Part shown: positions 3,501-60,934 of the stretch, piece after piece
Position numbering within the stretch: the first letter of the stretch is position 1
Layout of the letters: every line of letters starts with the position of its first letter
Assembly (NCBI RefSeq): GCF_003702705.1
Contig: NZ_QZMN01000007.1
Span: forward strand, 124,001 to 188,000
Reading direction: 5' to 3'
DNA: 64,000 nucleotides
Source: Ornithinimicrobium cerasi
GTDB lineage: Bacteria > Actinomycetota > Actinomycetes > Actinomycetales > Dermatophilaceae
Translations under genes and position numbers: made by a program
The notes under the pieces: generated by a model
What the model was told of the DNA's origin: nothing
The model's input: only the letters and a program-made list of their open reading frames with translations
The model's database searches: none

Positions 3501-5335
3501 TCCTCCTCCGTGCGCCGCGCGTCACCGGCCCACACCGCCTCGGACGGGGCACGCAGCCCGAAGTCATAGATGTAGCTCGTGTCCTCGCCCGTGCGCAGCT
3601 CGTACGGACGCTGGACCGTCACCTCCAGGCCGAGGTCGGCGAAGACGGGCAGCACGTCGGTGAGCGAGACCTCCTGGACGCGGTAGAACTTCAGCCGCCG
3701 CTCGGCCTCGTCGTCCTCCGGCTCGCGGTAGAGGTGGGGGCGGGCGTCGGCGCCGTCGGCCTCCAGGTCGACCAGCCGGGTGATGTCGAAGTAGGCCGTC
3801 TCCTCGTCGAAGTCCTCCTTGTAGGCCTCCGGGAACGCGGTCGCGTAGCGGGCGACGAGGTCTCCCACCTGCGTCTCGTCGGCGAGGTGCGTGGCCAGCG
3901 CCTCGGTCAGGCCCTCCACCCAGGTGGTGGTGACCTCGGCCAGCCGCTGCTGGAGCGCGTCCAGGTCGACCGGCGGCGCCGTGCGGTCCTTGGGCAGGCG
4001 GATGACGTAGTGCAGCTGCGCCAGCGGGGAGTCACCCACCCGCGTGGCGTAGTCGGACAGCTCCCCGACGAAGGTCTCCTCGAGCAGCGCCTGGACGCGC
4101 AGCCGGGAGGAGGTGTTGTAGCGGTCGCGGGGCAGGAACACCACGCAGCTGACGAACCTGCCGAACTCGTCCGGCCGGACGTAGACGCGGGCCGCCGGAC
4201 GCTCCATCAGTCGCAGGACGTCCAGAGCGGTCGCCTCGAGCTGCTGGACCGGGGCCTGGAACAGCTCGTCGCGCGGGAAGCCCTCGAGGACGCTGATCAG
4301 GTCCTTGCCGGAGTGGCTGTCGGGCGCGAACCCGCTGTTCGCCAGGATCTGCTTGACCTTGCCGCCCGCCACTGGCAGGCGGGTGGTCGACTCCGCGTAG
4401 GCCGTCTGGGTGAACAGGCCCAGGAACCGGCGCTCGCCGACCACCCTGCCCTGCTGGTCGAAGCGCCGGATGCCGATGTAGTCCATCGGCACCGACCGGT
4501 GCACGGTCGAGCGGGCGTTGGACTTGGTCACGGTGAGCAGGCGCGGCTCCCGCGCGGTAGCCGCCGCCTCGGGGCGCAACTGGCTCAGGGTGGCGGGGGC
4601 GCCCCGCTCGTCGCGCAGGATCCCGAGCCCGCTGCCCGGGACGGAGCGCAGGTATGCCGCGTCCTCCTCCTCGACGAGGTCGTAGGAGCGGTAGCCCAGG
4701 TAGGTGAAGTGGTGGTCGTCGAGCCAGCGCATGAAGTCGACCACCGGCTGCACCGTGGTCGGGTCGACCGTCGACGGTGGCGCGAGCTCGAGCTCGGCGA
4801 TGATCCCCCGGGCCTGCTGACGCATCGAGGGCCAGTCCTCGATGGCTCTGCGCACGTCGACGAGGACGCTCTCCACCCCGCGGGCCAGGGCCTCGAGGTC
4901 CTCCGGCCGACGCACCCGCTCGGTCTCCACGAGGATCCAGGACTCCGTCCGCTGGCCGGGTCCGGCGTCGCGCGGCTCGACGGGCAGGACGGCCCCGTCC
5001 TCGTCCACGACGAGCTGGGGGTGGAGCAGCTGGTGGACCTGCAGACCGTGCCGGGCGACCTCACCCAGCACCGAGTCCACGAGGAAGGGCATGTCGTCGG
5101 TGACCACCTGGACGGCGGTGTGCCGGCTGGACCACCCCTGCTCCTCCGTCGAGGGGTTGATCACCCGAACGGCGGCGCGGCCGGGGACGCGGCCCGCGGC
5201 CAGCTCGGCCATCGACGTGGCGATCGCCTCGAGCTGCGCCGGCGCGCGGCGGGTGGCCTCGTCGGTCGCGTGATGGAAAAAGCGGTCGATCAGCGTGTCG
5301 GGCAACCCCATTGCGAACAAGCACTCCTCGGTCAT
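530..5335 (-). CDS. gdh: NAD-specific glutamate dehydrogenase, giant (about 180 kDa) type
   Basis: This 1601-residue protein oxidatively deaminates glutamate to 2-oxoglutarate with NAD+. Its length matches the large GDH class of Streptomyces and Mycobacterium (about 1600 residues). The N-terminal half carries the ACT-like regulatory region. The catalytic part has GGLRWSDRREDFRTEV near residue 800 followed by a Lys-rich stretch, GVGDMSGDVFGNGM near 970 in the nucleotide-binding part, and NSAGVDSSDHEVN near 1150. The ATG encoding MTEECLFAM is chosen because the in-frame region upstream is low-complexity Arg/Gly with no conserved sequence. A TACTGT -10-like box lies about 35 nt upstream of it. 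The nearby pruA makes glutamate, so the two genes could form a proline-to-2-oxoglutarate route. Confidence 0.95.
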   Translation of the reverse strand: MTEECLFAMGLPDTLIDRFFHHATDEATRRAPAQLEAIATSMAELAAGRVPGRAAVRVINPSTEEQGWSSRHTAVQVVTDDMPFLVDSVLGEVARHGLQVHQLLHPQLVVDEDGAVLPVEPRDAGPGQRTESWILVETERVRRPEDLEALARGVESVLVDVRRAIEDWPSMRQQARGIIAELELAPPSTVDPTTVQPVVDFMRWLDDHHFTYLGYRSYDLVEEEDAAYLRSVPGSGLGILRDERGAPATLSQLRPEAAATAREPRLLTVTKSNARSTVHRSVPMDYIGIRRFDQQGRVVGERRFLGLFTQTAYAESTTRLPVAGGKVKQILANSGFAPDSHSGKDLISVLEGFPRDELFQAPVQQLEATALDVLRLMERPAARVYVRPDEFGRFVSCVVFLPRDRYNTSSRLRVQALLEETFVGELSDYATRVGDSPLAQLHYVIRLPKDRTAPPVDLDALQQRLAEVTTTWVEGLTEALATHLADETQVGDLVARYATAFPEAYKEDFDEETAYFDITRLVDLEADGADARPHLYREPEDDEAERRLKFYRVQEVSLTDVLPVFADLGLEVTVQRPYELRTGEDTSYIYDFGLRAPSEAVWAGDARRTEEEVASAFEDAFSAVWSGAAESDKLNSLVLTAGLDWRSVVILRTLVRYVRQIGTHSLEYIEEALVANPAIARQLVALFAARFDPDLGLDEEARRARTQELEEQTGTALDEVASLDQDRILRSLVALVGASVRTNFYQRDAEGAAKAHVALKLLPRELVMLPEPRPAYEIWVYAPRVEGAHLRFGPVARGGLRWSDRREDFRTEVLGLVKAQMVKNAVIVPTGSKGAFFPKQMPPASDREAWLAEGRAAYTTFISGLLDITDNRTPEGVAPPDRVVRHDGDDTYLVVAADKGTATFSDLANGIARSYGFWLDDAFASGGSAGYDHKEMGITARGAWESVKRHFRELGLDTQTEDFTVVGVGDMSGDVFGNGMLLSEHIRLVAAFDHRHIFLDPDPDAASTFRERQRMFELPGSSWEDYDTSLISEGGGVYPRTAKSVPVSPQVRSSLGIAEDVTAMPPADLLRAILLADVDLLWNGGIGTYVKASTQSHAEIGDRANDAIRVDGQDLRVRVVGEGGNLGLSQLGRVEAALRGVHVNTDAIDNSAGVDSSDHEVNIKIALTPLVTEGRMTMEDRDALLSSMTEEVAAKVLRHNYDQNVLIGNSRIQREVMAPVHRRLIPYLAESAGLDPALEFLPDRREWDRRAKEGTGLTSPEFSVLVAYAKLGLKEALNGSGLADDPAMTETLLTYFPEPLRERAHDQILGHPLRTQIIVNEIANAMVNRGGVSFAYRAADETGATLTQIARAFHVVRAVFDLPGYMAQVEALDNVVDTDTQTELYLEFRRLIDRAVRWFLNNRSLSSGMDEEIAQFAPSVQALVPHFGEMLQGSERERWQERVDWAEEQGVPAPLARRYAALLDSFSLLDVVELAMAMDRDTEEIAEVYFGVSEAFRLDQLLTHVSALPRTDRWSSLARGALRDDIYGVMRGLARTVAERTTPGSDSVERVREWMVENRAAINRTSQLLGSVGELEDPGLAPISVALRTLRGLVRQGAAGD

Positions 5336-5436
5336 GGCCGGCCGCGCACCTCGTCGTGCGCCGCCACCACAGTACCCGGCGGAGCGACGGGGTCGGGGCC
5401 TGGGGACAAGTCGGTCCACGGTGGGCCGGGGCGACC

Positions 5437-5442: not shown

Positions 5443-5448
5443 CGGGCC

Positions 5449-6006: not shown

Positions 6007-6507
6007 ATGAGGATCACCGAGACCGTCGTGCACCCTGTCGACGTCCACCGCACCTATGCCATGCTCGTCGACCCGGCATACCAGACGCTGCGCTGCGAGC
6101 GGGCGGGCGCGACCGACGAGACCGTCACCGTCGAGGAGCAGGACGGGGCCACCGTGGTCACCACCCGGCGCCACCTGCCCACCACCGGCGTGCCGGACTT
6201 CGCGCGGGCGTTCGTCGGTCCGCAGCTCCTGATCGTGGAGACGCTGCGCTGGGGGCCGGCGGACGAAGACGGCGAGCGCGAGGGCGCCATGTCCCTGGAC
6301 GTCCCGGGCACACCGGTGCGTTTTCTCGGGGGCGTGCACCTGCGGCGCGGCCCGCAGGAGGGGACCACCGAGCAGGTCGTCGACGGTGACCTCGAGGCCA
6401 ACGTCCCGTTCCTGGGTCGCCGGATCGAGGCGGCGGTGGCCCCGCAGATCCACGAGGTCGTCCAGCTCGAGAAGCAGGTCGCCCAGGAGTGGCTCGCGGC
6501 TCACTGA
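6007..6507 (+). CDS. DUF2505 family protein
   Basis: This 166-residue protein resembles the actinobacterial DUF2505 family, thought to adopt a START/SRPBCC-like lipid-binding fold. The features seen are an N-terminal strand (MRITETVVHPVDVHRTYAML), a Tyr residue in the DPAYQ segment, central beta-rich sequence, and a C-terminal amphipathic helix (VQLEKQVAQEWLAAH). No biochemical role is established for the family. It has its own leaderless promoter and a convergent pruA downstream, separated by a GC-rich hairpin. One GGTATGCCG-type word (reverse orientation) falls in its PAYQ codons at 6075. Confidence 0.75.
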   Translation: MRITETVVHPVDVHRTYAMLVDPAYQTLRCERAGATDETVTVEEQDGATVVTTRRHLPTTGVPDFARAFVGPQLLIVETLRWGPADEDGEREGAMSLDVPGTPVRFLGGVHLRRGPQEGTTEQVVDGDLEANVPFLGRRIEAAVAPQIHEVVQLEKQVAQEWLAAH

Positions 6508-6538: not shown

Positions 6539-8163
<1,625 letters not shown>

Positions 8164-8744: not shown

Positions 8745-10172
8745 TCACGCGGTCGAGGTGCGCCCGTGCCGGCGTCGCCCGCGTCGGCGGGTGGCGGCGG
8801 AACCCGCCTCCTCGCCCCGCTCCCCCACCCGGTCGGCCAGGCGCACCATCGCGGCACGCGCGGGGCTCGACGGACGGACCTCGCGCAGGACCCGGCCCTG
8901 CAGGAGGGCCGCGTCGACCGCGTCCCGGTCGTCGGGGACGAGCTCGGCGGGTGACACCCCGGCGAAGCGCTCCAGCGCCTCGGTGATCCGTCGGCCGGGG
9001 TCCGGGCCCACGGGGCCAGGACGGACGCGGTTGACGACGACGACCCGCGGGGCGTCGCACACCGCTTGGAGCAGGTCGAGCCCGCGGACCAGGCGCTGCA
9101 GACCCACGGGGTCGCCGGCGCCGACGACGACCACCGTGTCCGCCGCCTCGAGCGCGGTGAGGGTGGCGCCGTTGCGCCGCGGGGCGAGGGTGTCGAAGGA
9201 GAGCTCCTCGTCCTGCTCCAGGTAGGGGGCCACGTCCACGACCGTCCACCGGGCGATCTCGCGCCCGCGCTGGAGGACGTCGGCGAGCGCGACGTCCCGC
9301 AGCTCGGGCCACCTGTCCGACCGCGGCAGGCCGGTGAGGACGCGCAGCCCCGGCCCCGCACCCGGTGCGATACGGGCGAGGGCGGCGCGGTCGAGCGTGC
9401 CCTGGTCGGCTGCCCGTGTCGCCGCCGCGACACCCGGCACCTCGTCCAGGACGGCGAGGTGCTGCCCCACGCTGGCACCGTAGGTGTCCGCGTCGACGAG
9501 GAGGACCGGGTGCAGCGGGTCCGCCAGCTCGGCCGCCAGGTTGACCGCGACGGTCGTCCGGCCGGGGCTGCCGGTCGGGCCCCACACGACGACCACCCCG
9601 CCCGCCCGGTCGCCGCCCTCCGGCTCCTGCAGGCCGTTGCCCTCCTGCGCCGAGAGGAGGTCCTCGATCTCCTCGTCCAGCTCTTGGTATGCCGTTCCCC
9701 GGCCGGGGTCGGCGACGCCCTCGGTGACCGGTCCCGCAGGGTCGCCCTGACCGGTCTCGCGGCCCACGCCCTCCTGGCGGCCCGCGTCGAGCAGGGCACC
9801 CGAGGGTCGGTCGGCCGGCCCGCGCAGCAGCTCCTCGAGGGCGGCGTCGAGGTCCGCCGGGGGGCTGTCGGCCGGCAGCACGGCCGGGCAGCCCCACCGC
9901 CGGAGGGTCCGTGCACCCGCCTCGTCACCCGGCGGATGGACCCCCAGCACGACCAGTCCGTGGGTGGCGAGCATGTCGAGCACGGGACGGTCGAGGCCAC
10001 GCAGGTCGCAGGACACCACCGCCACCCGGCCCAGGCCTGCGGCGGCCACGCCGAGCAGCTCGGCGACGTCGGCGCACCGGCGGGCCACGTGCACGTGCTC
10101 CGAGCGCGACAGGGCCGCGGCGAGGTCCACCTCCCAGCGCGGCGCGACCGCCGTCAGCAGGGGCAGGGTCAC
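8745..10172 (-). CDS. CpaE/TadZ-like MinD-family protein
   Basis: This 475-residue protein has an N-terminal receiver-like region (about 1-110), an acidic linker (about 140-205) and a C-terminal MinD/ParA-type domain. The ATPase part is recognised from VVWGPTGSPGRTTVAVNLA, the DADTYGASVGQHLAVL switch region and DTVVVVGAGDPVGLQRL. The P-loop is degenerate: canonical KGGxGKTT reads PTGSPGRTT, with Arg in place of the catalytic Lys. The tail is very Arg-rich. GTG at 10172 is chosen because it overlaps the SAF gene stop by 4 bp (GTGA), indicating translational coupling. CpaE/TadZ proteins localise pilus machinery, but no other tad/flp gene is in the window. Confidence 0.75.
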   Translation of the reverse strand: MTLPLLTAVAPRWEVDLAAALSRSEHVHVARRCADVAELLGVAAAGLGRVAVVSCDLRGLDRPVLDMLATHGLVVLGVHPPGDEAGARTLRRWGCPAVLPADSPPADLDAALEELLRGPADRPSGALLDAGRQEGVGRETGQGDPAGPVTEGVADPGRGTAYQELDEEIEDLLSAQEGNGLQEPEGGDRAGGVVVVWGPTGSPGRTTVAVNLAAELADPLHPVLLVDADTYGASVGQHLAVLDEVPGVAAATRAADQGTLDRAALARIAPGAGPGLRVLTGLPRSDRWPELRDVALADVLQRGREIARWTVVDVAPYLEQDEELSFDTLAPRRNGATLTALEAADTVVVVGAGDPVGLQRLVRGLDLLQAVCDAPRVVVVNRVRPGPVGPDPGRRITEALERFAGVSPAELVPDDRDAVDAALLQGRVLREVRPSSPARAAMVRLADRVGERGEEAGSAATRRRGRRRHGRTSTA

Positions 10173-16024: not shown

Positions 16025-17179
16025 ATGGGCCCGCAGGCCGTACCACAGGGCGCCCCGGCCCTCCTCGACGCCGAGGTCCGGCTGGTCCCGCCGCGCCGCG
16101 ACCACGTCCCGATGCTCGTGGAGCTGGGTCAGGACGCCGAGTGCCTGCGCTGGGGAGACGCCTCCCCCACCGGCAGCCCTGGTGCTGCGGAGAGCTGGGT
16201 GGCGGTGGCGATGGAGCGGTGGGCCGACCCCCGCCCGTGGACACCGCGCCAGTGGGTGGTCGAGGTGCACGACGGCGGGGTATGGCGTGCGGCCGGCACC
16301 GTGGAGTACCGCCCCGACGGGCACGGGGCGGTCGAGGTCGGGTATGCCGTCCACCCCGCCTCCCGCGGCCGCGGTCTGGCGGTCCGTGCCGTCCGGCTGG
16401 CCCTCGACCACGGCTTCCGCGACGACGGGGTGCACACCGCCCGCTGGCGCGCCGAGGTCGGCAACTGGGCCTCCCGCCGGGTCGCCTGGCGGCTCGGCTT
16501 CAGCCCGCCCCAGCGGGTCCGGGGTCTGATGCCTGGCCACGGCACCGAGCAGGTGCCGCGGGACGGGTGGATCTCCACCCTGCGCCACGACGAGGCGAGG
16601 GAGGCGGCATACCCGTGGCTGGTGGTGCCCACCCTGCACGGTGCTGACGTGGTGCTGCGGCCCTGGCGGCACGAGGACGCGCCACGGGTCGTCGAGGCGT
16701 GCACCGACCCGCTGACCCGGCGCTACCTGCCTGCGCTCCCGAGCCCCTACGGCATGGGTGAGGCGCTGGTGTTCGTCGACACCGTGCGCGACGCCGCCGC
16801 GCGGGGGACGGAGGTGTCCTGGTGCGCGGCGGACCCCTCGACCGACCGGTGCCTCGGTGCGGTGAGCCTCATGGGGCTCGCTCCTGCGAGCGGCCAGGGC
16901 GAGGTGGGGTATTGGCTCCACCCCGAGGCCCGCGGTCGGGGCGCCATGAGGGCAGCGGTGCGCGCGGCGGTCGGTCACGGGTTCTCGCCCGCGACGGACG
17001 GCGGCCTGGGTCTGCGCCGCGTCCTGCTGCGGACCGCGGGGAGCAACGTGGCCAGCCAGCGGGTGGCCCTCGCCCTGGGGATGACCGAGGTGGGCCGGGA
17101 CCGGCTCGCGGAGACGCTCGGTGACGGCACGGTGGAGGACATGGTCCGGTTCGACCTCCTGGCGGACGAGCAGTCCTGA
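16025..17179 (+). CDS. Tandem GNAT N-acetyltransferase
   Basis: This 384-residue protein has two GNAT (RimJ/RimL-like) domains, about 15-185 and 200-380. Acetyl-CoA-binding motif A is seen in each: VGYAVHPASRGRGLAVRAVR in the first and VGYWLHPEARGRGAMRAAVR in the second. Each domain also has the C-terminal N/S-x-A-S-x-R-V-A helix (WASRRVAWRLGF; VASQRVALALGM). The family acetylates protein N-termini or small amines; the substrate is not predictable. The gene is divergent from secA and shares its promoter box. It carries two GGTATGCCG words. Confidence 0.88.
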   Translation: MGPQAVPQGAPALLDAEVRLVPPRRDHVPMLVELGQDAECLRWGDASPTGSPGAAESWVAVAMERWADPRPWTPRQWVVEVHDGGVWRAAGTVEYRPDGHGAVEVGYAVHPASRGRGLAVRAVRLALDHGFRDDGVHTARWRAEVGNWASRRVAWRLGFSPPQRVRGLMPGHGTEQVPRDGWISTLRHDEAREAAYPWLVVPTLHGADVVLRPWRHEDAPRVVEACTDPLTRRYLPALPSPYGMGEALVFVDTVRDAAARGTEVSWCAADPSTDRCLGAVSLMGLAPASGQGEVGYWLHPEARGRGAMRAAVRAAVGHGFSPATDGGLGLRRVLLRTAGSNVASQRVALALGMTEVGRDRLAETLGDGTVEDMVRFDLLADEQS

Positions 17180-20600: not shown

Positions 20601-21818
20601 TCACGGTTTGGCAAAGTCGACCCTGTCCAGCCCCAGCCACGAGGCCATCGCCTCCAGCTCCCCGGTCAGCGCGGCATGCCCCGCCACCCGGTCGACGCCC
20701 TCCTCCCAGTGGAGCGAGCGCACGAGGAGCGAACCACTGGCCCGGTCGGCCTTGAGGTCCACGCGACCCACCAGCTGCTCGTCCAGCAGGAAGGGCAGCA
20801 CGTAGTAGCCGAACACCCGCTGCGGGGCGGGGACGTAGATCTCCAGCCGGTAGCGCATCCCCCAGAGCGCCTCGGTCCGCTCCCGCTGCCAGATCAGCGA
20901 GTCGAAGGGGCTGAGCAGGGCCGCACCGGGCACCCGCCGCGGCGCACGAGCCGCCGGGTCCCGCCAGAGCGGCGGCCGGTCCCAGCCCCGGACCCGGACG
21001 CGCTCGGCCAGCCCCCGTCGCTCCAGCTCCTGCAGGCCGACCTCCACCCTGGGCCCCCGCACCCGGAAGTAGTCGGCCAGGCACCGCTGGCTGCCCAGCC
21101 CGTGGGCGACCAGCGACAGCCTGATCAGCTCGGTCACCGCCTCCTGCGGGTCGGCGTCCCGTGCCGCATCCCGGGCGGCGACGACCTCGGCGGGCAAGAC
21201 CGCCGCGGGTGCGGCATACCTGCGCTCGAAGGAGGAGCTCCGCCCGGCCGAGGTGATGTCCCCCACCCAGAAGAGGTACTCGAGGCAGTTCTTCACCGCG
21301 GACCAGTTCCACCCCCAGTCCGCGCTCCCCCGGTCCGCCCCGTGCGGCAGGTGCGCCTCGACCTCGCGCGAGGTCAGCGGTCCGTGCTCGACGATCACGT
21401 CGCTGACCGCCTCCAGCAGCCCGGGATGACTGGTGCTGACCGACCCGCTCCACCCCCGCTCCCGGGCGGCCTCCATCCGGAAGGTCAGCAGCGGCCAGGT
21501 GGCGGGCGGGACGAGGGAGGCCTCGTGCGCCCAGTACTCCACGAGGCGGCGGGCCGTGCGGCCCCTGGACGAGGTGCCGTCGCGGGCACCGTCGAGGAGC
21601 GCGGGGTCATAGGGACCGAGGCGGGAGAAGAAGGGCAGGTACTGGCTGCGGGTGAGGACGTTGACGCTGTCGATCTGGACGACCTGGACCCGGTCCACGA
21701 CACGGGAGAGATGCCTCATCGTGGCGGCCCCGGGCGGTGGCCGACGGTCCGCGAAGCCCTGGGCCGCGAGCGCCGTGCGTCGGGCCTGGGCGAGGCTGAT
21801 CGTGGGCCGCGTCGTCAT
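20601..21818 (-). CDS. AlkX/YcaQ-type winged-helix DNA glycosylase
   Basis: This 405-residue protein belongs to the HTH_42 (AlkZ/AlkX) family of winged-helix glycosylases that remove alkylated bases and unhook interstrand crosslinks. The catalytic loop reads VVQIDSVNVLTRSQYLPFFS; a Gln-x-Asp motif (QID) marks the AlkX/YcaQ subgroup, whereas AlkZ proteins have Gln-x-Gln. Other marks are WAHEASLVP, LSPFDSLIWQRERTEALWG and YVLPFLL. The ATG encoding MTTRPTISLAQ is preferred over an upstream in-frame GTG because the extension is not family-like. With dinB and an AlkA-like gene it gives the window three alkylation or lesion-tolerance genes. Confidence 0.88.
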   Translation of the reverse strand: MTTRPTISLAQARRTALAAQGFADRRPPPGAATMRHLSRVVDRVQVVQIDSVNVLTRSQYLPFFSRLGPYDPALLDGARDGTSSRGRTARRLVEYWAHEASLVPPATWPLLTFRMEAARERGWSGSVSTSHPGLLEAVSDVIVEHGPLTSREVEAHLPHGADRGSADWGWNWSAVKNCLEYLFWVGDITSAGRSSSFERRYAAPAAVLPAEVVAARDAARDADPQEAVTELIRLSLVAHGLGSQRCLADYFRVRGPRVEVGLQELERRGLAERVRVRGWDRPPLWRDPAARAPRRVPGAALLSPFDSLIWQRERTEALWGMRYRLEIYVPAPQRVFGYYVLPFLLDEQLVGRVDLKADRASGSLLVRSLHWEEGVDRVAGHAALTGELEAMASWLGLDRVDFAKP

Positions 21819-22684: not shown

Positions 22685-23440
22685 CTAGTCGGCTCCCCCC
22701 GGTCGTGGGAGGTCACCCCGCCCCCGCCGCCGCGTCGCCGCCACGGTCGCGGCGACGACCGGGCCGGCCCCCGCCTCGCGCAGCGCCCGGGCACACTCGA
22801 CGAGGGTCGCACCGGTGGTCACGACGTCGTCGACGACCACACAGGGCGTGCCCTCCAGTACGCGCACCAGGGCCGGTCGCGCCCGCACGGCTCCGGCGAG
22901 ATTGGCGCTGCGGGCCCGGGACCCGAGCCCCGCCTGGTCGGCCACCCGGCGCACGAGCCGCAGACCGTCCACCCGGACGAGACCGGACCGCGGCAGCCCC
23001 CTGAGGGCGGCACCCGTCAGGGTGAGGACGCGGTGCTCGCCCCGGGCCCGGGTGCTCGCCCGGGCGGAGGGAGCGGGAAGCAGCAGCACGCGACCACCCG
23101 TGCGGAGCGCGTCGCGGTGCGCGGGCGACCCGTCCAGGGCCGCGGCCAGCACCGCACGCAGCACCGGCGCCAGGACGGGGGTGAGGTCGGCCCGTCCGCC
23201 GTCCTTCCAGGCGACGACCGCGGCCCGGACCTCGTCCGCGTAGGCGGCAGCCGACCAGGTGGGCGGCATCCCCGGCGGGCGCGGGGTCGGCGACCACGGT
23301 CCTGCCCGGCTGGCCGCCACTGCCAGCAGCACGTCGCACCCGACGCACCAGCGCACGCCGGCAGCGCCGCACCCGGCGCAGGCGGTCGGGGCCGCGAGCT
23401 CCACCAGGGCGAGCACGTCCTCCCACGGGCGCCACGGCAT
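22685..23440 (-). CDS. comF: ComF family phosphoribosyltransferase-like protein
   Basis: This 251-residue protein has an N-terminal Cys cluster (CAGCGAAGVRWCVGCD, two CxxC knuckles) and a C-terminal PRTase domain with the PRPP loop VVVDDVVTTGATLVECARAL. ComF proteins act in uptake of transforming DNA at the inner face of the membrane in competent bacteria, although in actinobacteria the role is often unknown. The start codon itself lies in a GGTATGCCG word (23436), giving Met-Pro-Trp. It lies downstream of lpqB on the same strand with an 84-nt gap. No comEC or comEA is visible in the window. Confidence 0.88.
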   Translation of the reverse strand: MPWRPWEDVLALVELAAPTACAGCGAAGVRWCVGCDVLLAVAASRAGPWSPTPRPPGMPPTWSAAAYADEVRAAVVAWKDGGRADLTPVLAPVLRAVLAAALDGSPAHRDALRTGGRVLLLPAPSARASTRARGEHRVLTLTGAALRGLPRSGLVRVDGLRLVRRVADQAGLGSRARSANLAGAVRARPALVRVLEGTPCVVVDDVVTTGATLVECARALREAGAGPVVAATVAATRRRGRGDLPRPGGAD

Positions 23441-23524
23441 ACCCCCAGCGTGCGGGACGACGGGCCGGGACGGCCGGCCCCGTCCACAGGCGGGTGCTCC
23501 CGCAGGCGCGGGTGCACCGCGGGG

Positions 23525-35334: not shown

Positions 35335-35544
35335 TCAGACCTGGACGGCGACGGCGTCGTCGACGAGGAGCACCGGTATGCCGTCGGCCACCGGGTAGCG
35401 CAGGCGCCGGCCGGGGGCGCCGCAGTCGGACGCGCACTGGAGCGCCGGGCGCCCCTCGTCGTCGACGACGTCGACCAGCTCGTGCAGCCCGACCGGGCAG
35501 CGCAGGATCTCGCGGACCCAGGGCTCGAACTCGGGACGTGTCAT
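35335..35544 (-). CDS. Trm112-like small protein
   Basis: This is a 69-residue protein of the Trm112/YcaR family: LRCPVGLHELVDVVDDEG, then LQCASDCG, and RYPVADGIPVLLVDDA. Only CPVG is present where many homologues have CPxC, so the zinc site looks incomplete. The ATG overlaps the manB stop by 4 bp. Eukaryotic Trm112 activates methyltransferases; the bacterial role is unclear. A GGTATGCCG word forces a rare ATA Ile codon in its conserved GIP. Confidence 0.85.
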   Translation of the reverse strand: MTRPEFEPWVREILRCPVGLHELVDVVDDEGRPALQCASDCGAPGRRLRYPVADGIPVLLVDDAVAVQV

Positions 35545-44470: not shown

Positions 44471-45579
44471 CAGACGGGGCCCGGGACCAGGCCCGGGACG
44501 AGGTTGTGGCCCTGGACAGGAGTCATCCCGGGGGCCGCTCCAGCCCGACGCCACCGGGGACCGTCGTCGTGCTCCCCCTCCACGGCCTCCCCGAGGTGCG
44601 CGAGGGCGCGGACCTCGCCGGTCTGCTCGTCGACGCGGCCGGGCAGGTCGGCGGGTTGCGGGACGGGGACGTGCTCGTGGTCTCCAGCAAGGTGGTCTCC
44701 AAGGCGTGGGGTCTGCGCGAGCCGGCCGGGGAGGGACGCGAGGCGCTCGTCCTGCGGCACGCCCGCAGGGTGGTCGCCGAGCGGCGCACGACCACCGGCA
44801 CCACCCGCATCGTCGAGGCCGAGGCAGGACCGGTGATGGCCGCCGCCGGTCTGGACGCCTCGAACACCGGCCCGGACGGTGGCGTGCTCGTGCTGCCCGC
44901 CGACCCCGACCGGGCCGCCGCGGACCTCCGCGCCGAGGTCGTCGCCCTCGCCGGAATCCGGCGACTCGGCCTCGTCCTCAGCGACACCGCGGGGCGCCCC
45001 TGGCGGGCCGGGCAGACCGACCTCGCTCTGGGCGCGGCCGGGGTCTGCGTCCTCGACGACCTGCGCTCGGCCGTCGACGCCGACGGTCGACCCCTGGCCG
45101 TCACCGCGCGCGCGGTCGCGGACGAGATCGCCGCCGCGGCCGACCTCGTCAAGGGCAAGGTGGCGCAGGTGCCGGCCGCCCTGCTCCGGGGCTTGGACGA
45201 CGTCGTCCCGTCCGCCGACGCCGGCGCGCCACCCGGGGCGCGCTCGCTCGTCCGCACCGGTCCGGGCGACTGGTTCGCGCTCGGCCACCGTGAGGCGGTC
45301 CGCGCCGCCCTCGGTGCTCCCCCCGCCACGGCGGCCGCGGCCGCGGTCGGCGTCCCGGCCGCCGGGCCGGAGGGGGAGCCGGAGCGCGGCGACCGCGCCG
45401 TCCGCCTCGCGCTGCTGGGCCACGAGGGGGCGAGGGTCCACGGGTCACCCGCCTCCGGGTATGCCGTGCACGCCCACGACCCCGTCCTGGCCGGTCGGGT
45501 GGCCGCGCGCCTCGAGGTCGCGCTGGTCGGCGAGGACGTCAGCGCCACGGTGGAGGTCATCCCCACGCCCGGGGGGTGA
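44467..45579 (+). CDS. fbiB: Coenzyme F420-0:L-glutamate ligase (CofE domain only)
   Basis: This 370-residue protein adds glutamates to F420-0. The CofE domain is about residues 30-275: VVVLPLHGLPEVREGADLA, DVLVVSSKVVSKAWG, DASNTGPDGGVLVLP, LVLSDTAGRPWRAGQTDLAL and GRPLAVTARAVADEIAAAAD. In FbiB of mycobacteria a roughly 200-residue FMN (nitroreductase-like) reductase domain follows. Here only about 95 residues remain after CofE, Ala/Gly-rich and then a small alpha/beta tail (RAVRLALLGHEGARVHGSPA). The reductase must be separate or replaced. It overlaps fbiA by 4 bp. Confidence 0.9.
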   Translation: MTDGARDQARDEVVALDRSHPGGRSSPTPPGTVVVLPLHGLPEVREGADLAGLLVDAAGQVGGLRDGDVLVVSSKVVSKAWGLREPAGEGREALVLRHARRVVAERRTTTGTTRIVEAEAGPVMAAAGLDASNTGPDGGVLVLPADPDRAAADLRAEVVALAGIRRLGLVLSDTAGRPWRAGQTDLALGAAGVCVLDDLRSAVDADGRPLAVTARAVADEIAAAADLVKGKVAQVPAALLRGLDDVVPSADAGAPPGARSLVRTGPGDWFALGHREAVRAALGAPPATAAAAAVGVPAAGPEGEPERGDRAVRLALLGHEGARVHGSPASGYAVHAHDPVLAGRVAARLEVALVGEDVSATVEVIPTPGG

Positions 45580-47464: not shown

Positions 47465-48289
47465 ATGGACAAAGTTGTGACCTCGGCGGCGGAGGCCGTC
47501 GACGGCATCCTGGACGGCATGACCCTCACCGTCGGGGGCTTCGGCCTCTCCGGCATCCCGACCGTGCTGATCCAGGAGGTGCTCCGGCGAGGGACGACCG
47601 ACCTGCAGGTGGTGTCGAACAACTGCGGCGTGGACGGTGCCGGCCTGGGGCTGCTGCTCGCGGAGGGCCGCATCCGCCGTGTCATCGCCTCCTACGTCGG
47701 GGAGAACCGCGAGTTCGCGAGGCAGTACCTCTCCGGTGAGCTCGAGGTCGAGCTCACGCCGCAGGGCACGCTGGCGGAGAAGATGCGCGCGGGAGGCGCC
47801 GGCATCCCTGCCTTCTTCACGCCGACCGGGGTCGGGTCCCAGGTGTCCGAGGGGGGTATGCCGTGGCTCTACGACGCGCAGGGGAACGTCGTCAAGGAGT
47901 CGCCGGCCAAGGAGAAGCGCGAGTTCACCGTCCGCGGCGTGACAAGGGACTACGTGCTCGAGGACTCGATCTTCGCGGACTTCGGCCTGGTCCGGGCCGC
48001 CAAGGGTGACCGGCACGGCAACCTGGTCTTCAACAAGTCCTCCCGCAACTTCAACCCGCTGTGCGCGATGGCCGCCGAGATCGCGGTGGCCGAGGTGGAG
48101 GAGCTGGTCGAGCCCGGCGAGATCGACCCCGACGAGGTCCACCTCCCGGGCATCTACGTGCGCCGAGTGCTCGCCCTCACGCCCGAGCAGGCGAGGGCCA
48201 AGGACATCGAGAAGCGGACCACCCGGGGGGCCCGGCCCCCCGTGGCCCAGGACGACCTACCCCGCCCGACCACCACCGAGGAGGCCTGA
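47465..48289 (+). CDS. scoA: 3-oxoacid CoA-transferase, subunit A
   Basis: This 274-residue subunit has the CoA-transferase type I fold: LDGMTLTVGGFGLSGIPTVL (the GGFG motif), LQVVSNNCGVDGAGLGLLLA, and GTLAEKMRAGGAGIPAFFTP. The pair moves CoA from succinyl-CoA or another acyl-CoA to acetoacetate or other oxoacids. It is followed after 3 nt by subunit B. ATG 47465 is supported by a TACCCT box 6 nt upstream. The pair separates TIGR03089 from GT2/LCP, which are near neighbours in mycobacteria. A GGTATGCCG word falls in the GGMPW segment. Confidence 0.93.
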   Translation: MDKVVTSAAEAVDGILDGMTLTVGGFGLSGIPTVLIQEVLRRGTTDLQVVSNNCGVDGAGLGLLLAEGRIRRVIASYVGENREFARQYLSGELEVELTPQGTLAEKMRAGGAGIPAFFTPTGVGSQVSEGGMPWLYDAQGNVVKESPAKEKREFTVRGVTRDYVLEDSIFADFGLVRAAKGDRHGNLVFNKSSRNFNPLCAMAAEIAVAEVEELVEPGEIDPDEVHLPGIYVRRVLALTPEQARAKDIEKRTTRGARPPVAQDDLPRPTTTEEA

Positions 48290-48973: not shown

Positions 48974-49996
48974 TCAGCCGGCTGGGGCCGTCTCCCCGAC
49001 CGGTCCGGGCGTCCCGCCGCCGCCGGGCCCGCGGAGGAACCCGGCGCCCCACGTCAGGTGCATCGTGGCCAGGACTCCCGGCATCCGGGCCGCGACTCCC
49101 GGACGCTCGTGCCGGGCGATGAACCACCCGCCCAGGGTGACGGCAGCGGCATACCCCGCCGGGAGCACCCACAGCGGCCTCCAGGCGAGCCCGCCCACCG
49201 CGCCCGCGGCGACGAGGGTCGCCGCCACCGGCGGGGCGAGGTAGCGCCGGTTCAGGGTGCCGGGGTGGTGCCGCACGACCTGCCGACGCCACTGCCCGGT
49301 CGTCCAGAACTGGCGCGCGAGCGCGCCCCACGTGGCGCGCGGCCGGTAGGTCACGGTGAGCGAGGGGTCGAACCAGACGACCCCGCCCGCCTCCCGGATG
49401 CGGTGGTTCAGCTCCCAGTCCTGGGCGCGGGTGAACCGCGTGTCGTAGCCACCGACGCGCTCCAGCCACTCGCGCCGGAAGACGCCCAGGTAGACGGTGT
49501 CCGCCGGACCGGCCTCGCCCCCCACGTGGAACCGCGCCCCGCCGATCCCCAGGGGGGAGCGCATGGCCACGGCCACGGCCTGCTGCAGGTCCCCGACCCC
49601 CTGCGCCAGCATCACCCCTCCCACGTTGGCCGCACCGGTCTCCGCGAGCACCTCGACGGCCCGACGGACGTAGCCCTCGGAGAGGGCCCCGTGGCCGTCC
49701 ATGCGCACCAGCACGTCGTGGTGCGCGGCGGCGATCGCGGCGTTGAGCCCGTCCGGGGTGCGCCCGCTGGGGTTGTCGACGACGAGCACGCGCGGGTCCC
49801 TCGCCGCCAGCTCGTCAGCCACCTCGCGGGTGCGGTCGCGGCTGGGGCCCACCGCGACGACGACCTCCATCGGCCCGGGGTAGTCCTGGGCCAGGACGGA
49901 CCCGACCGCCTCGGGCAGGTGGTGCTCCTCGTCGAGGATGGGCATGACGACCGAGACGGGCGGGTATGCCGTGGGCCGGCTGGGCGTGGTGCTCAC
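48974..49996 (-). CDS. GT2 family glycosyltransferase
   Basis: This 340-residue protein has a GT-A domain: VSVVMPILDEEHHLPEAVGS, VVVAVGPSRDRT, VRMDGHGALSEGYV (DxD equivalent) and TRAQDWELNHRIREAG (ED motif). The C-terminal third has two or three hydrophobic helices (LVAAGAVGGLAWRPL, VLPAGYAAAVTLGGWF). It resembles transferases beside LCP proteins (Rv3265-like) in actinobacteria, so a wall polymer role is likely. GTG 49996 has TAACCT 7 nt upstream. Divergent from the LCP gene. Two GGTATGCCG words lie inside. Confidence 0.88.
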   Translation of the reverse strand: MSTTPSRPTAYPPVSVVMPILDEEHHLPEAVGSVLAQDYPGPMEVVVAVGPSRDRTREVADELAARDPRVLVVDNPSGRTPDGLNAAIAAAHHDVLVRMDGHGALSEGYVRRAVEVLAETGAANVGGVMLAQGVGDLQQAVAVAMRSPLGIGGARFHVGGEAGPADTVYLGVFRREWLERVGGYDTRFTRAQDWELNHRIREAGGVVWFDPSLTVTYRPRATWGALARQFWTTGQWRRQVVRHHPGTLNRRYLAPPVAATLVAAGAVGGLAWRPLWVLPAGYAAAVTLGGWFIARHERPGVAARMPGVLATMHLTWGAGFLRGPGGGGTPGPVGETAPAG

Positions 49997-53033: not shown

Positions 53034-54095
53034 TCAGTCCTCCAGGGCGGTGCCGATGAGGAGGTTCGCGAGGTCCGGCAGGCCCGGCACGGTGTCCCAG
53101 TCGACGTTGGCCAGCAGGACCGCCGTGGTATCGGTCCCCGGCCGGTAGCGGGAGACCGCGGCCACCCCCGGATCGCCCCCGTCCTTGCCGAGGACCCCGT
53201 CGTCGCGCACGTCCACCCCGTAGCCCGAGGACCACCGGCCCCCGGCCCGCACCCGCGGGGTGAGCACCAGCTCGGGGGTGACCTCACGCCATACCCCGCC
53301 GCGGTGCAGGGCGCGCAGGAACACCTCGACGTCCTGCGCGGTGACGACGGCGCCGCCGTCCCCGCCACCGACCGGGTGGACCGAGTAGATGTTGGTGCGC
53401 CAGGGTCCGCCGTCGGTCAGCGGCGGCAGGTAGCCCTGCGCGACGTCGGCGTGGACCTCGTCGAAGGCGGGGTAGCCGCTGGCGGTCATCCCGGCCGGCG
53501 CGAGCACGCGGGTCTCCACCGCCTCGGTGAACGGCAGACCCGACACCGTCGCCAGGAGGAGCCCGAGCAGCACGAAACCGGCGTTGCTGTAGTGGTAGGC
53601 GCTCCCCGGAGGGCACACGGGCGGCAGGTCGGCGAAGAGCGGCAGCAGGGCGACGTAGTCCCGCACGGTGTAGTTCGGCAGCGTCGCCCAGATGTCGTCC
53701 ATGTCCTCGCGGTGGCCCGGGAGGTTCTCGTCCTCCTCGAAGTAGTCGGCGATCCCCGAGGTGTGCGAGAGCAGGTGGTGCACGGTGACGTCCTCGCGCA
53801 GGGTCGTCGGCCGCCTGTCCGGCGGCAGGACGTCGACGACGGCGTCGTGCAGGCCGACCTCGCCCCGCCCGACGGCGTCGAGGACGCCGACGGCGGTGAA
53901 CATCTTGCTCAGCGACGCCGTGGCGAACCGGGTGGTCGGGCGCACGGGTATGCCGTCACCCCGGTTGGCGAACCCGTGGCAGGACTCGTGCAGCACCTCG
54001 TCCCCGCGCGTCACCCGGAGGATGCCGGAGAAGGCCTCCTCCGCCTCCAGCCGCTCCGCCGTCTCCGTGACCGTCCGCCAGCTCGCCTCGCCCAT
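53034..54095 (-). CDS. Serine hydrolase of the beta-lactamase/DD-peptidase type
   Basis: This 353-residue class C beta-lactamase-like serine hydrolase has SxxK in ATASLSKMFTAVG (about residue 63), YxN in YHYSNAGFVLLG and a HTSGIADYF motif. No signal peptide or TM helix is visible, so it may be cytoplasmic, perhaps an esterase or peptidase. It converges on the kinase gene, with adjacent stops. ATG 54095 lies near a weak CATGCT box 6 nt upstream. A GGTATGCCG word at 53947 puts a rare ATA codon in DGIPVRP. Confidence 0.88.
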   Translation of the reverse strand: MGEASWRTVTETAERLEAEEAFSGILRVTRGDEVLHESCHGFANRGDGIPVRPTTRFATASLSKMFTAVGVLDAVGRGEVGLHDAVVDVLPPDRRPTTLREDVTVHHLLSHTSGIADYFEEDENLPGHREDMDDIWATLPNYTVRDYVALLPLFADLPPVCPPGSAYHYSNAGFVLLGLLLATVSGLPFTEAVETRVLAPAGMTASGYPAFDEVHADVAQGYLPPLTDGGPWRTNIYSVHPVGGGDGGAVVTAQDVEVFLRALHRGGVWREVTPELVLTPRVRAGGRWSSGYGVDVRDDGVLGKDGGDPGVAAVSRYRPGTDTTAVLLANVDWDTVPGLPDLANLLIGTALED

Positions 54096-56073: not shown

Positions 56074-57206
56074 GAGCGCTCCAGCGGCAGCGTCGCGACG
56101 AGCTCGAACCCACCGCCTGGGCAGGGACCGGCTCGCAGCGACCCGCCGTACGCGGTCAGTCGCTCGCGGAGCCCCCGCAGCCCGGTGCCGTGCGTCCTCT
56201 CGCCGTCCACCTGGCCCGGGCGACCGTCGTCGCGGACGGCGAGGTCGACCCGGTCCGGCCGGACGTCGACCGTCACCTCGGCGCGCCGGGGCTCCCGCGC
56301 GTGCCGCAGCGTGTTGGTCAGGCCCTCCTGCACCACCCGGTATGCCGTGAGGTCGGGGCCGGGGGGCAGCTCGCCCACGGGTCCGGTCACCACGAGCGAC
56401 ACCGGGAGCCCGGCCGCGCGGAACTGGTCGGCCAGCCGGTCCGCCTCGGCCAGCCTCGGCTGGGGCCGCAGGTCCGCCTCCTCGTCCCCGCGCAGGACGC
56501 TGACCAGGCGGCGCATCTCGGCCAGGGCCTCGCGGCCCGTCGACTCGACGCTCTCGAGCGCCTCACGCTCGGTGTCCTGGCCCGGCAGCAGGCGGCGACG
56601 GACCGCCGAGGCCTGCACCGTCATCACCGAGACGCTGTGCCCGAGCACGTCGTGGAGCTCCCGGGCGATCCGGTTGCGTTCCTCGGCCACCGCCTGGGTC
56701 TCCCGCTGCACCAGGTTCACCCGGCGCTGCTCGCGGTTGAGGCCGGTGGTCCGCACGAGCGCCCCCGCCAGCCAGACGACCAGCACCGGCGAGAACCAGA
56801 CCCACGACGCAGCCCACTCGACCAGCGTGGAGTTCACCGGGTCCAGGGACGCCCATGACGCGTGCAGCACGGTCGCGAGCGCCAGCGCGATCCAGGACCG
56901 TCGCCACGGGAGCAGGCGGGCGGCCGTCCAGATGGCGATCGCCGGAGCCAGGACGACGGCGTTGCCCTCCGGCGCCCCCACCAGGGCGAACTCCACCACG
57001 CTGACGACCACCATGGCCGACAGCATCCCCAGCGGACGCCATCGACGACCGAGGAGGAGCAGCGCGGTCACGGCATACAGCAGCGCCTGCGCCCACTCCG
57101 GACCCTGACGGTGCGAGGCACCCAGCCCCGTCCACGCCTCGAGCTGCCCGAGCACCAGGACGGCCGTCGCCAGCGCGACGTCGAGGGCCCAGCTCCGGCG
57201 GCTCAC
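56070..57206 (-). CDS. NarL-type (HisKA_3) sensor histidine kinase
   Basis: This 378-residue kinase has five or six transmembrane segments in its first 150 residues with very short loops, resembling DesK-type membrane sensors. It is followed by HisKA_3 (ARELHDVLGHSVSVMTVQAS, His about 200) and an ATPase with YRVVQEGLTNTLRHA, RDDGR and HGTGLRGLRERL. GTG 57206 has TAGCGT 7 nt upstream. It is divergent from the 57381 membrane-protein gene; the gap between them is about 175 bp. Confidence 0.92.
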   Translation of the reverse strand: MSRRSWALDVALATAVLVLGQLEAWTGLGASHRQGPEWAQALLYAVTALLLLGRRWRPLGMLSAMVVVSVVEFALVGAPEGNAVVLAPAIAIWTAARLLPWRRSWIALALATVLHASWASLDPVNSTLVEWAASWVWFSPVLVVWLAGALVRTTGLNREQRRVNLVQRETQAVAEERNRIARELHDVLGHSVSVMTVQASAVRRRLLPGQDTEREALESVESTGREALAEMRRLVSVLRGDEEADLRPQPRLAEADRLADQFRAAGLPVSLVVTGPVGELPPGPDLTAYRVVQEGLTNTLRHAREPRRAEVTVDVRPDRVDLAVRDDGRPGQVDGERTHGTGLRGLRERLTAYGGSLRAGPCPGGGFELVATLPLERS

Positions 57207-58076: not shown

Positions 58077-59017
58077 GTGATCGCGTACGTCATACCCAGA
58101 CCCTCGAGGCGGCGCAGGGTCTCCACGACCTGCTCGGGGGTGCCGACCGCGGGCTGGGTGCGCAGGCTGCGCACCTGGCCCTCGGCCCGGTCCTCGCCCA
58201 GACCCGCCTGGAGGAACCGGTCCTTGATCCCGGCCAGCCGCTCCTCCACCTCGGACTCGTCCCGGCCGATGACGACGTTGTAGTTGGCGGAGCGGACGAT
58301 CGAGCCGTAGTCGCGGCCGACGTCCTCGCAGTGGCCGCGCAGGACCTCCGACTTGTGCTCGAACCCCTCGGGGGCGCCGTCGAAGTTGGTGTAGTCGGCG
58401 TACTCCGCGGCGATCCGCAGCGTCTTCCGCTCACCACCCCCGGCGATCCACATCGGTATGCCGTTGCGCTCGCTGCCCGCGAACGCGGTCCCCTGCAGGG
58501 GCCGGGGCCAGCACATCGCCCCGTCCACCTGGTAGTGCTCCCCGTCGAGGGTGGCCGAACCGGTGGTCCACATCTGCCGGAAGACCTCGACGCCCTCCCG
58601 CAGCCGCGCCAGCCGCTCACCCGCGCGCGGGAAGCCGTAGCCGTAGGCGCGCCACTCGTGCTCGTACCAGCCCGCGCCGATCCCCATCTCGACCCGGCCG
58701 CCGGAGATGACGTCGGTGGTCGCGGCCACCTTGGCCAGGTAGGTCGGCTGGCGGTAGCTCATGCAGGTGCACATCTGGCCCAGGCGCACCCGGCCGGTCG
58801 TGGCGGCGAAGGCGGCCATCAGCGTCCAGGCCTCGTGGGTGGCCTCCCCGGTCGGTTCGGGGGTGGTGTGGACGTGGTCGTAGACCCACAGCGACTCCCA
58901 CGCCTCCTCGGCGTCCAGCCGCTGGGCGAGGTCGAGCATCACCCCCCACTGCTGCTCGGGGGCGATGCCGACGAGGTCCATCCGCCAGCCCTGGGGCACG
59001 AACATTCCGAAGCGCAT
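57998..59017 (-). CDS. LLM-class F420-dependent oxidoreductase
   Basis: This 339-residue luciferase-like TIM-barrel protein has MRFGMFVPQGWRMDLVG, WVYDHVHTTPEPTGEATHEA, VRLGQMCTCMSYRQPTYLAK, GRVEMGIGAGWYEHEWRAYG and PMWIAGGGERKTLRIAAEYA, an arrangement typical of actinobacterial F420-dependent oxidoreductases. F420 is expected because fbiA/fbiB occur in the same window. The substrate is not predictable. ATG 59017 has TACGTT 6 nt upstream. The 3' end overlaps the convergent membrane-protein gene by 79 bp. Confidence 0.92.
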   Translation of the reverse strand: MRFGMFVPQGWRMDLVGIAPEQQWGVMLDLAQRLDAEEAWESLWVYDHVHTTPEPTGEATHEAWTLMAAFAATTGRVRLGQMCTCMSYRQPTYLAKVAATTDVISGGRVEMGIGAGWYEHEWRAYGYGFPRAGERLARLREGVEVFRQMWTTGSATLDGEHYQVDGAMCWPRPLQGTAFAGSERNGIPMWIAGGGERKTLRIAAEYADYTNFDGAPEGFEHKSEVLRGHCEDVGRDYGSIVRSANYNVVIGRDESEVEERLAGIKDRFLQAGLGEDRAEGQVRSLRTQPAVGTPEQVVETLRRLEGLGMTYAITYFAEAAYDTSGIELFEDEVIPELAG

Positions 59018-59023
59018 GGCCCC

Positions 59024-59029: not shown

Positions 59030-59071
59030 GTGCGAACGACCCCGCGGGGCGCGGTCGCTCCGGCGTCCCGC

Positions 59072-59151
59072 GGCCACCCACCCGAGTGGCTCGTGCACGG
59101 CATACCGGCGTCCGGCGTGCCGGGGCCACCCACCCGAGTGGCTCGTGCACG
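59072..59151. repeat. Two 28-bp direct repeats in the purE-LLM gap
   Basis: Identical 28-bp units (59072-59099 and 59124-59151) begin GGCCACCCACCC and end CTCGTGCACG, separated by 24 bp. Each holds a GCCAC/GTGGC stem with an 8-nt loop and a CGTGCACG palindrome. A GGTATGCCG word (59099-59106, minus orientation) overlaps the end of unit 1. The gap is downstream of purE and upstream of the LLM gene. Confidence 0.85.
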
Positions 59152-59162
59152 CGGGCCCGGCC

Positions 59163-59720
59163 TCAGCCGTCCCGCCGCTCCCGCAGGCGCGCGCCCTTGG
59201 CGTGGGCCTGGTCGCGCAGGTTGTCGGCGAAGGTGCCCAGCCGCTCGCGCCACGCCGCCGACCGCTCCCCCTCGCCGGAGGCGAGGATCCGCACGGCCAG
59301 CAGGCCTGCGTTGCGCGCACCGGCGACCGACACCGTCGCGACCGGGATCCCGGCCGGCATCTGGACGATCGACAGCAGCGAGTCCATGCCGTCGAGGTGC
59401 TTCAGCGGCACCGGGACACCGATGACCGGCAGCACCGTGACCGAGGCCAGCATCCCCGGCAGGTGCGCCGCCCCGCCAGCCCCGGCGACGATCACCCGCA
59501 GCCCGCGGTCGGCCGCCGACCGCCCGTAGTCGATCATCTCGACGGGCATCCGGTGCGCGGACACGACGTCGGCCTCGTAGGGCACGCCGAACTCCTCCAG
59601 CACCTGCGCCGCCGCCTCCATGACCGGCCAGTCGCTGTCGCTGCCCATGACCAGGCCGACGAGCGGTCGCGCCGTGCCGTCCGTGGCGTGGTAGCCGTCC
59701 GTGCCGGTGCCCGTGCTCAT
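59163..59720 (-). CDS. purE: 5-(carboxyamino)imidazole ribonucleotide mutase
   Basis: This 185-residue class I PurE converts N5-CAIR to CAIR. The family core is seen: [35 protein letters not shown] (His), [38 protein letters not shown] and [13 protein letters not shown]. It overlaps purK by 4 bp (ATGA). An N-terminal extension of about 18 residues precedes the core. Its translation depends on purK. Confidence 0.96.
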
Positions 59721-60934
59721 TCCCTCACCACTCCCTGCAGGTAGTCGGCCGCGTGCCGGGCCCGCTCGCGCAGGTCCTCCAACGACGCCTCGTCCTCCCC
59801 GGCACCGAACACGGTGACGTGACCCAGCTTGCGCCCGGGCCGCACCCCCTTGCCGTAGAGGTGGATCTTCAGGCCGGGGTCGCGGGCCATGAGGTGCCGG
59901 TAGGTGGGGTACAGGTCCTCGTCGTCGCCACCGAGCACGTTGGCCATCACGGTCCACCGGTCCCGCGCCGAGGGGTCGCCCAGCGGCAGGTCGAGCACGG
60001 CCCGCAGATGCTGCTCGAACTGGCTGGTCACCGAGCCCTCGATGGTCCAGTGCCCGCTGTTGTGGGGGCGCATCGCCAGCTCGTTGACGAGGTATGCCGG
60101 GGCGCCGGTCTCCCCGTCGCGCACCTCGAACAGCTCCACCGCCAGGACGCCGGTGACCCCGAGCGCACCCGCGATCCGCAGGGCGCCCTCGGCGGCCGCG
60201 ACCGCGACCTGCTCGTCGAGCCCGGGCGCGGGCGCGAGCACCTCGGTGTTGATCCCGCCGGACTGCACCGTGTGGACGATCGGCCAGGCGGCGGCCTGGC
60301 CCGACGGGGAGCGCGCGACGAGGGCCGCGAGCTCGCGGGTGAAGTCGACGGCCTCCTCCAGCAGGACCCCGTCCTCGAGCGAGCCGGGCTCCCCGACGGC
60401 GGCGAGCCAGTCGTCGAGCTCGGCGACCGAGCGGCATACCCTCACCCCCTTGCCGTCGTACCCGCCGCGCGGGGTCTTGGCCACCACCGGCCAGCCGACC
60501 TCGGCGGCGAAGGCCTCGACGTCCCCGGCGTCCCGCGCCCGCGCCCAGCGGGGGCAGGGGATGCCCAGCTCGGTCAGGCGCCGGCGCATCGCCAGCTTGT
60601 CCTGGGCGAAGACGAGCGCCTCGGGGCCGGGATGGAGGTTGACGCCGTCGGCGGCCAGCGCGGTGAGCACCTCCTGGGGCACGTGCTCGTGGTCGAAGGT
60701 GACCACGTCGCAGTGCCTGGCCCACTCCCGCAGGGCCTCGAGGTCGGTGTGCTCGCCGACCGGGCTGTGCGGCACGACGAGGGCAGCGCTGGCCGTCTCG
60801 GACTCGGCGAGGACCGACAGGGTCACGGAGAGCGCGACGGCCGGCGGCTGGCACATCCGCGCCAGCTGGCCGCCGCCCACGATGCCGACGACCGGGAAGC
60901 CGCCCTCCGCGCGCAGGGGGGTGGGTGTGGTCAC
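59717..60934 (-). CDS. purK: N5-carboxyaminoimidazole ribonucleotide synthase
   Basis: This 405-residue ATP-grasp protein uses bicarbonate and ATP to carboxylate AIR. The N-terminus [20 protein letters not shown] and the ATP-grasp segments [35 protein letters not shown] and [20 protein letters not shown] (metal-binding Glu) with [20 protein letters not shown] are clear. GTG 60934 has TAGGGT 6 nt upstream. Two GGTATGCCG words lie in it, at 60091 and 60433. Confidence 0.96.

Follow-up and report, generated by a model that had tools for sequence, protein, structure and literature searches.

The 64-kb stretch of the Ornithinimicrobium cerasi genome analyzed here (part of contig C66 of genome G000, and hereafter called the window) carries a short DNA word, GGTATGCCG, that recurs on both strands and mostly inside genes. 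An exact search found 24 matches, 14 on the forward and 10 on the reverse strand, the first starting at 4651 and the last ending at 60440 (Table 1), compared with a mean of 0.20 and a maximum of 2 copies in 100 dinucleotide shuffles of the window. This recount agrees with the original prediction, made by eye from the letters alone, and the octamer GGTATGCC likewise gave 24 matches, in other words with G as the next letter in 24/24 cases, as had been claimed. According to home-made gene calls based on GC frame, 21 of the 24 copies are intragenic, and they occupy all three frames in both senses, bearing out the proposal that the reading frame differs among copies. The copies at 23435, 35375 and 59098 lie outside the gene calls; the first of these spans the start codon of a comF-like gene, as had also been noticed, and the Pfam match of this gene is a phosphoribosyltransferase domain. 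One detail needed correction: the rare codon ATA was thought to be imposed by four copies, and we found three (read as Gly-Ile(ATA)-Pro), while the fourth may hinge on the start codon chosen. Scans of the window for tRNAs and Rfam families gave no matches.

Table 1. Exact copies of GGTATGCCG in the window, numbered along it
Feature	Coordinates	Strand	Basis
Copy 1	4651..4659	+	exact match
Copy 2	6074..6082	-	exact match
Copy 3	9686..9694	+	exact match
Copy 4	16341..16349	+	exact match
Copy 5	16605..16613	-	exact match
Copy 6	21212..21220	-	exact match
Copy 7, ATG = called start of comF-like gene 22685-23440 (-)	23435..23443	-	match + gene call
Copy 8, in Y-family polymerase gene	31650..31658	-	match + gene call
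Copy 9	34895..34903	-	exact match
Copy 10, outside gene calls	35375..35383	+	match + gene call
Copy 11	36464..36472	+	exact match
Copy 12	38203..38211	+	exact match
Copy 13	40417..40425	+	exact match
Copy 14	41284..41292	-	exact match
Copy 15	45458..45466	+	exact match
Copy 16, in CoA-transferase gene	47855..47863	+	match + gene call
Copy 17	49147..49155	-	exact match
Copy 18	49963..49971	+	exact match
Copy 19	53947..53955	+	exact match
Copy 20	56339..56347	+	exact match
Copy 21	58455..58463	+	exact match
Copy 22, outside gene calls	59098..59106	-	match + gene call
Copy 23, in purK-like gene	60091..60099	+	match + gene call
Copy 24, in purK-like gene	60432..60440	-	match + gene call

The excess extends over the whole genome (3.83 Mb), where the count that the original prediction had proposed as a check gave 1,077 copies (556 forward, 521 reverse), or about one per 3.6 kb, against 7 (2 and 5) for the reversed word used as a control. 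For the finer controls we used a 448-kb sample, consisting of the window and sampled stretches of the same genome, which holds 156 copies and in which genes were called with the same kind of home-made gene finder. Shuffling synonymous codons, another check that had been proposed, left a mean of 3.9 and a maximum of 9 copies in the called genes over 100 trials, compared with 121 observed, and the word is denser outside called genes (0.74 copies per kb) than inside (0.30). The many frames, the 30-fold excess over the codon shuffle and the higher density outside called genes together favor a signal in the DNA rather than in the protein, as had been argued, although “selection” is perhaps the wrong term, considering that such words may multiply through molecular drive when uptake is biased. 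The original prediction had also named loss of the excess under a higher-order Markov background as a result that would speak against it. The excess stands at orders 2 and 3 (2.7 and 3.9 copies expected for 156 observed); at orders 4 to 6 the expectation rises to 35, 97 and 145, which fits that adverse outcome in letter but not in substance, because these orders contain the word's own sub-words and are therefore unable to test it.

The word is sharply delimited. Directly after GGTATGCCG, T (82) or C (57) follows at 139/155 sites, giving the extended consensus GGTATGCCGY, and a weak excess of A precedes it (42/155); the flanks otherwise show mostly codon periodicity. Against an order-3 background with the word masked, 156 exact copies stand against 1.6 expected, while its 27 one-letter variants together reach 198 against 71.5 expected, the largest single variant having 31 copies, below the 156 of the exact word. 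The variant excess lies mainly at position 1 (counting from 1; A 13 and T 13, against 0.7 each) and position 7 (A 31, G 19 and T 12, against about 2 each), with a further excess for G at position 3 (22 against 8). Positions 6 and 9 have 1 and 2 variants in total; at position 8, transversions number 9 (2.1 expected) and C-to-T changes are absent. Transitions thus exceed expectation at three positions (1, 2 and 7) and show no excess at 4, 6, 8 and 9. To judge from these letters, the pattern would look like the mark of a recognizer with few tolerant positions; simple decay would leave transitions everywhere. The strands are used equally (78 forward and 78 reverse in the 448 kb), and all 19 of the 20-kb bins that hold at least 4 sites have both, none being one-sided, so the absence of strand bias that had been reported for the window extends to the sample. 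Alternation between strands is slightly above chance (93/153, P 0.009). A seemingly one-sided forward run on contig C1 beyond 149 kb was rejected, as the fetched stretches show both strands.

For the comparison between genomes, we label the words A (GGTATGCCG), B (CGAAGGGGG), C (CGGATGCCK, or CGGATGCCG) and D (GGTAGCGGC), and consider a genome enriched with A if its count is 100 or more and no less than 5 times the control. By this measure, A is enriched in 112 of the 187 genomes of the window's family, O. cerasi included, and in 32 of its 53 genera (107 to 2,198 copies), with strand totals of 41,173 forward and 41,068 reverse across the 112; ten further genomes are intermediate and 65 have fewer than 40 copies. 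Within Ornithinimicrobium, 31 of 32 genomes have 193 to 1,323 copies, and the remaining one (G023) has only 20. Among 80 named comEC loci, those of Knoellia remsis, Humibacillus xanthopallidus, Terrabacter sp. Root85 and Phycicoccus elongatus Lp2 carry A at 5 to 15 copies per 14-22 kb, and the locus of Intrasporangium flavum has no copy in 22 kb. In 22 genomes from 19 other families of the order, the counts (1 to 49) are mostly near the control, and somewhat above it in G046 (49 against 12) and G052 (21 against 2). On these sequence counts, A is a lineage trait.

Word discovery in word-poor genomes, followed by counting across genomes, yielded the other three words. B is enriched in 16/16 genomes of genus g52 and 3/3 of genus g61 (797 to 1,939 copies, controls 11 to 34) and in 0/168 other genomes of the family (at most 80 copies). 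These 19 genomes hold merely 3-20 copies of A, a split for which Fisher's test gives P 6e-9, a figure that ignores relatedness. C, as CGGATGCCK, was counted in 33 sampled genomes of f19, another of the order's families; it reaches at least 5 times the control in 29 of them, with up to 3,616 copies, and 2.7 to 4.3 times in the other four. As we read the table, no 5-fold excess occurs among the 363 genomes outside f19 (of 396 in all), and a moderate one in G032 (471 against 126) was not counted as a dialect. In the window's own family, CGGATGCCG exceeds 900 copies in 7/187 genomes (G202, G074, G075 and G091-G094), the next highest count being 448. Genus g40 carries both words, with 492 copies of A and 1,011 of C in G093, 479 and 968 in G094, 107 and 2,347 in G091, and 79 and 1,871 in G092. 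D occurs 625 times in the Ornithinimicrobium genome G023, which is the one poor in A, against 22 to 99 times in 31 congeners; it is the weakest of the four dialects, because the reversed control word is itself common in G023 (257). A and C have ATGCC in common. By analogy, the pattern resembles the dialects of the DNA uptake sequence (DUS) of Neisseriaceae.

Several other words and repeats also came up. Candidate words seen in single genomes, which may be codon effects, are CCGATGCGG (G140), CGCCGTACG (G141), CGTACGCCG (G072), CCGAGGCGG (G042), GGCCGATGC (G045), CGGCGTCGT (G038), GGCCGACGG (G047) and GGCGTCCGG (G058). The words GTGATCATG and TGATCATGC are in excess mostly outside called genes (in G058/G040 and G043), and perhaps represent a regulator site near gene starts. 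G207 has about 15 copies of a repeat with CCGCACCTACTCGACCA and 8 of a repeat with CTCCGCTAACGCTCC, none of either in called genes, which would suit CRISPR-like or tandem arrays. AGGCCTTC is in excess in the window (13 against 1.4 expected) and in G109 (18 against 3.3 in 60 kb). Words derived from orthologous named loci of Streptomyces, Nocardioides and Actinomadura were dropped, being inflated by homology.

Word A is also conserved in position. In the comEC regions of 14 Ornithinimicrobium genomes (47 sites), 120 of 274 orthologous comparisons (45 gapped) showed the exact word intact, whereas control 9-mers shifted by 33 or 63 bases were intact in 147 of 1,082 (153 gapped), so that sites of the word persist roughly three times as often as neighboring 9-mers. 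Foreign DNA was examined in a 40-kb prophage that lies on the same contig as the window (C66 47838-88100; the window starts at C66:124001), inside comEC. This prophage is siphophage-like, with a large serine integrase, terminase, portal, major head protein and tape measure, and its G+C content is similar (0.72), but it has 0 copies of GGTATGCCG against 15.4 expected (P 2e-7). Across 80 related viral loci (1.13 Mb) there are 4 copies, and 10 of the reversed control; a viral search with the prophage integrase found no relative.

The machinery for transformation is widespread in these genomes. A search for the Competence domain of ComEC was positive in 56 of 59 relatives and in 41/41 further family genomes, and one for TadE in 49 of 50 genomes, the fetched loci showing two kinds of tad cluster. 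Within the window itself, a ParA/CpaE-like ATPase adjoins a SAF-domain protein (8745-10762, reverse strand; weak Pfam matches), forming a pilus-assembly-like pair that lies on a different contig from the tad locus fetched from the same genome. One species of interest is Micrococcus luteus, which we take to belong to the same order as O. cerasi. There, deleting genes of either of two tad loci abolished transformation, with the exception of tadB (PMC4322843). The comEC gene is split in more than one genome: in G002 and G018 the break in the Competence domain lies close to the residue affected in G000, with the parts about 40 kb apart on one contig, and the three splits fit phages disarming transformation. 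A precedent is found in pneumococcus, where prophages disrupting the competence gene comYC are known (PMC12637031). Two further comEC loci stand out. In G191, from another genus, the two ComEC parts are on separate contigs, perhaps through nothing more than an assembly break; in G015, a one-contig genome, comEC appears internally deleted, with residues 1-110 only of the Competence domain and abutting matches to query residues 7-343 and 483-712.

Given the words, their sharpness, strand symmetry and positional conservation, their absence from one prophage, the dialects, and the comEC and tad genes, we consider it reasonably probable that the best explanation for GGTATGCCGY would be, by analogy with DUS and with the uptake signal sequences of Pasteurellaceae, a self-recognition word of natural transformation via a Tad/Flp pilus and ComEA/ComEC. 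In this model, a protein at the cell surface would prefer word-bearing double-stranded DNA, which ComEC would import and homologous recombination would then insert; this protein is probably ComEA or, within the pilus, a minor pilin or a tip component. As fragments with a perfect word would be taken up more, perfect words would spread on both strands by molecular drive and replace near-matches, while foreign DNA without the word would be taken up less; if the preference of the receptor shifted, the genome would slowly re-word itself, resulting in dialects. We infer the role of the uptake machinery as reader, the component that reads, and the drive, an argument reportedly already present in the literature (Maughan et al. 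2010). Biased uptake and recombination would jointly account for the sharpness, the symmetry, the absence from phage DNA, the persistence and the replacing dialects, and we know of no other mechanism that explains these together. Among the three candidates first proposed (an uptake-like sequence, a methylation target and a nucleoid-protein site), the uptake-like sequence has the most support, because of the dialects, the prophage absence and the near-misses tolerated at few positions.

A number of observations weigh against this reading. ComEC and TadE are equally common in word-poor and word-rich genomes, and PilM, which belongs to the type IVa pili, the pilus type reading DUS, gave two weak partial matches in 37 family genomes; since none of the three tracks the word, the machinery is to be seen as a condition, not as proof. 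The search for a receptor relied on home-made gene calling, in which genes of genomes with lower GC are missed, and within that scope it gave no clear dialect split and no candidate, either among the tad minor pilins of 20 fetched regions, not all of which have a recognizable tad cluster, or in ComEA among about ten Ornithinimicrobium proteins. The comEC gene of O. cerasi is itself split by the prophage, so this strain may not transform at present. Furthermore, spacing between sites is chance-like (coefficient of variation, CV, 1.02), the orthologous comparisons and the genomes are not mutually independent, and any other word that accumulates slowly could also be missing from a prophage. The ATGCC core is absent from B and D, and 44 of the 187 family genomes belong to none of the B, C and D groups while holding fewer than 40 copies of A.

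An alternative that involves no role in uptake, and that we consider unlikely, is a word created and maintained in the cell by a DNA methyltransferase and repair, like the highly iterated palindrome HIP1 of cyanobacteria. HIP1 is abundant, varies between lineages, comes with variants and is tied to orphan methyltransferases, with a model of methylation-dependent repair (PMC4390886), and the words described here are likewise highly iterated and lineage-specific. Word switching among close relatives could also follow the exchange of methyltransferases. However, unlike the palindromic HIP1, GGTATGCCG, CGAAGGGGG and GGTAGCGGC differ from their own reverse complements, and near-misses are nearly absent at several positions. 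In addition, most Actinobacteria are not known to have MutS/MutL.

A recombination hotspot word read by a helicase-nuclease such as AdnAB, similar to Chi, would suit the density of about one copy per 3.6 kb, given that the density of Chi in Escherichia coli is similar and that Chi words vary between lineages. We nevertheless regard this as improbable. E. coli Chi is polar and read by RecBCD, whereas the word here has no strand polarity, and no obvious drive would give so sharp a word. RecC is also patchy, occurring in 17 of the 33 genomes tested without splitting word-rich from word-poor ones: it was found in 7 A-rich and 6/6 B genomes and in the A-poor G066, G141, G023 and G207, and not in 6 of 13 A-rich genomes (G191, G134, G193, G035, G162 and G174) or in 4/4 C-rich f19 genomes. 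RecBCD is therefore unlikely to be the reader, and both RecBCD-Chi and FtsK-orienting polar sequences (KOPS) are disfavored. Little probability likewise attaches to a chromosome-organizing or nucleoid-protein site, for instance for a segregation or condensation factor: such a site would agree with a genome-wide word on both strands, kept in orthologues and denser outside called genes, but not with the chance-like spacing, the absence, judged in 20-kb bins, of the polarity that FtsK/KOPS requires, the seven-fold range of copies among Ornithinimicrobium genomes (with 20 in G023), or whole genera without the word. Finally, an ordinary codon-pair or composition effect, for which the high Markov orders do predict much of the count, has next to no probability and is regarded as refuted by the synonymous-codon shuffle, considering also that those orders include the word itself, that the reversed word has 7 copies, that both strands and all frames are used, and that the 19 genomes of g52 and g61 have almost no A.

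Returning to the uptake word of a Tad/Flp system, we lean slightly towards a broader claim, namely that at least two high-GC Gram-positive families would have dialect uptake words that are independent of the known ones and read by Tad/Flp pili, that these would form a genus-level barrier and a code for self-recognition, and that the switches (A/B between genera, A/C via g40, A/D within Ornithinimicrobium) would record receptor evolution. If this is true, a few hundred genomes would be open to comparison for the origin and switching of uptake specificity and for its influence on gene flow; the word on donor DNA could ease the genetic study of harmless actinobacteria, and it could help in spotting foreign islands. 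Should the uptake reading prove wrong, these words would still be a strong, unexplained genome-wide signal.

Among known systems, DUS in Neisseriaceae has, for example, 3,269 and 2,245 copies in two genomes, and its dialects, which affect transformation, differ by few letters around an inner core (PMC3630211). The words described here are like DUS in being short, present in many copies and divided into lineage dialects, A and C sharing ATGCC; they are unlike DUS in occurring in another phylum, with Tad/Flp genes rather than a well-matched PilM, and in that B and D are without the ATGCC core. The extended uptake signal sequence (USS) of Pasteurellaceae has AT-rich flanks, unlike those found here, where the core is followed mainly by Y and preceded by a weak A. 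A non-palindromic 9-letter core is a feature in common with USS, whose receptor is predicted only, as a minor pilin; the same source names Neisseriaceae and Pasteurellaceae as the only families known with such discrimination (PMC12616744, 2025). For mycobacteria, PMC10526031 states that no such discrimination is reported, and none of the literature matches listed (titles and abstract beginnings, without subscription journals and preprints) describes such a word for Actinomycetota. The term “uptake sequence” was not found in the main text of the M. luteus tad paper, and the setting there is otherwise like the present one, with two tad loci alongside comEA/comEC (PMC4322843). If uptake is confirmed, Actinomycetota would add a third case, independent of the two Gram-negative ones, with several dialects and a different pilus.

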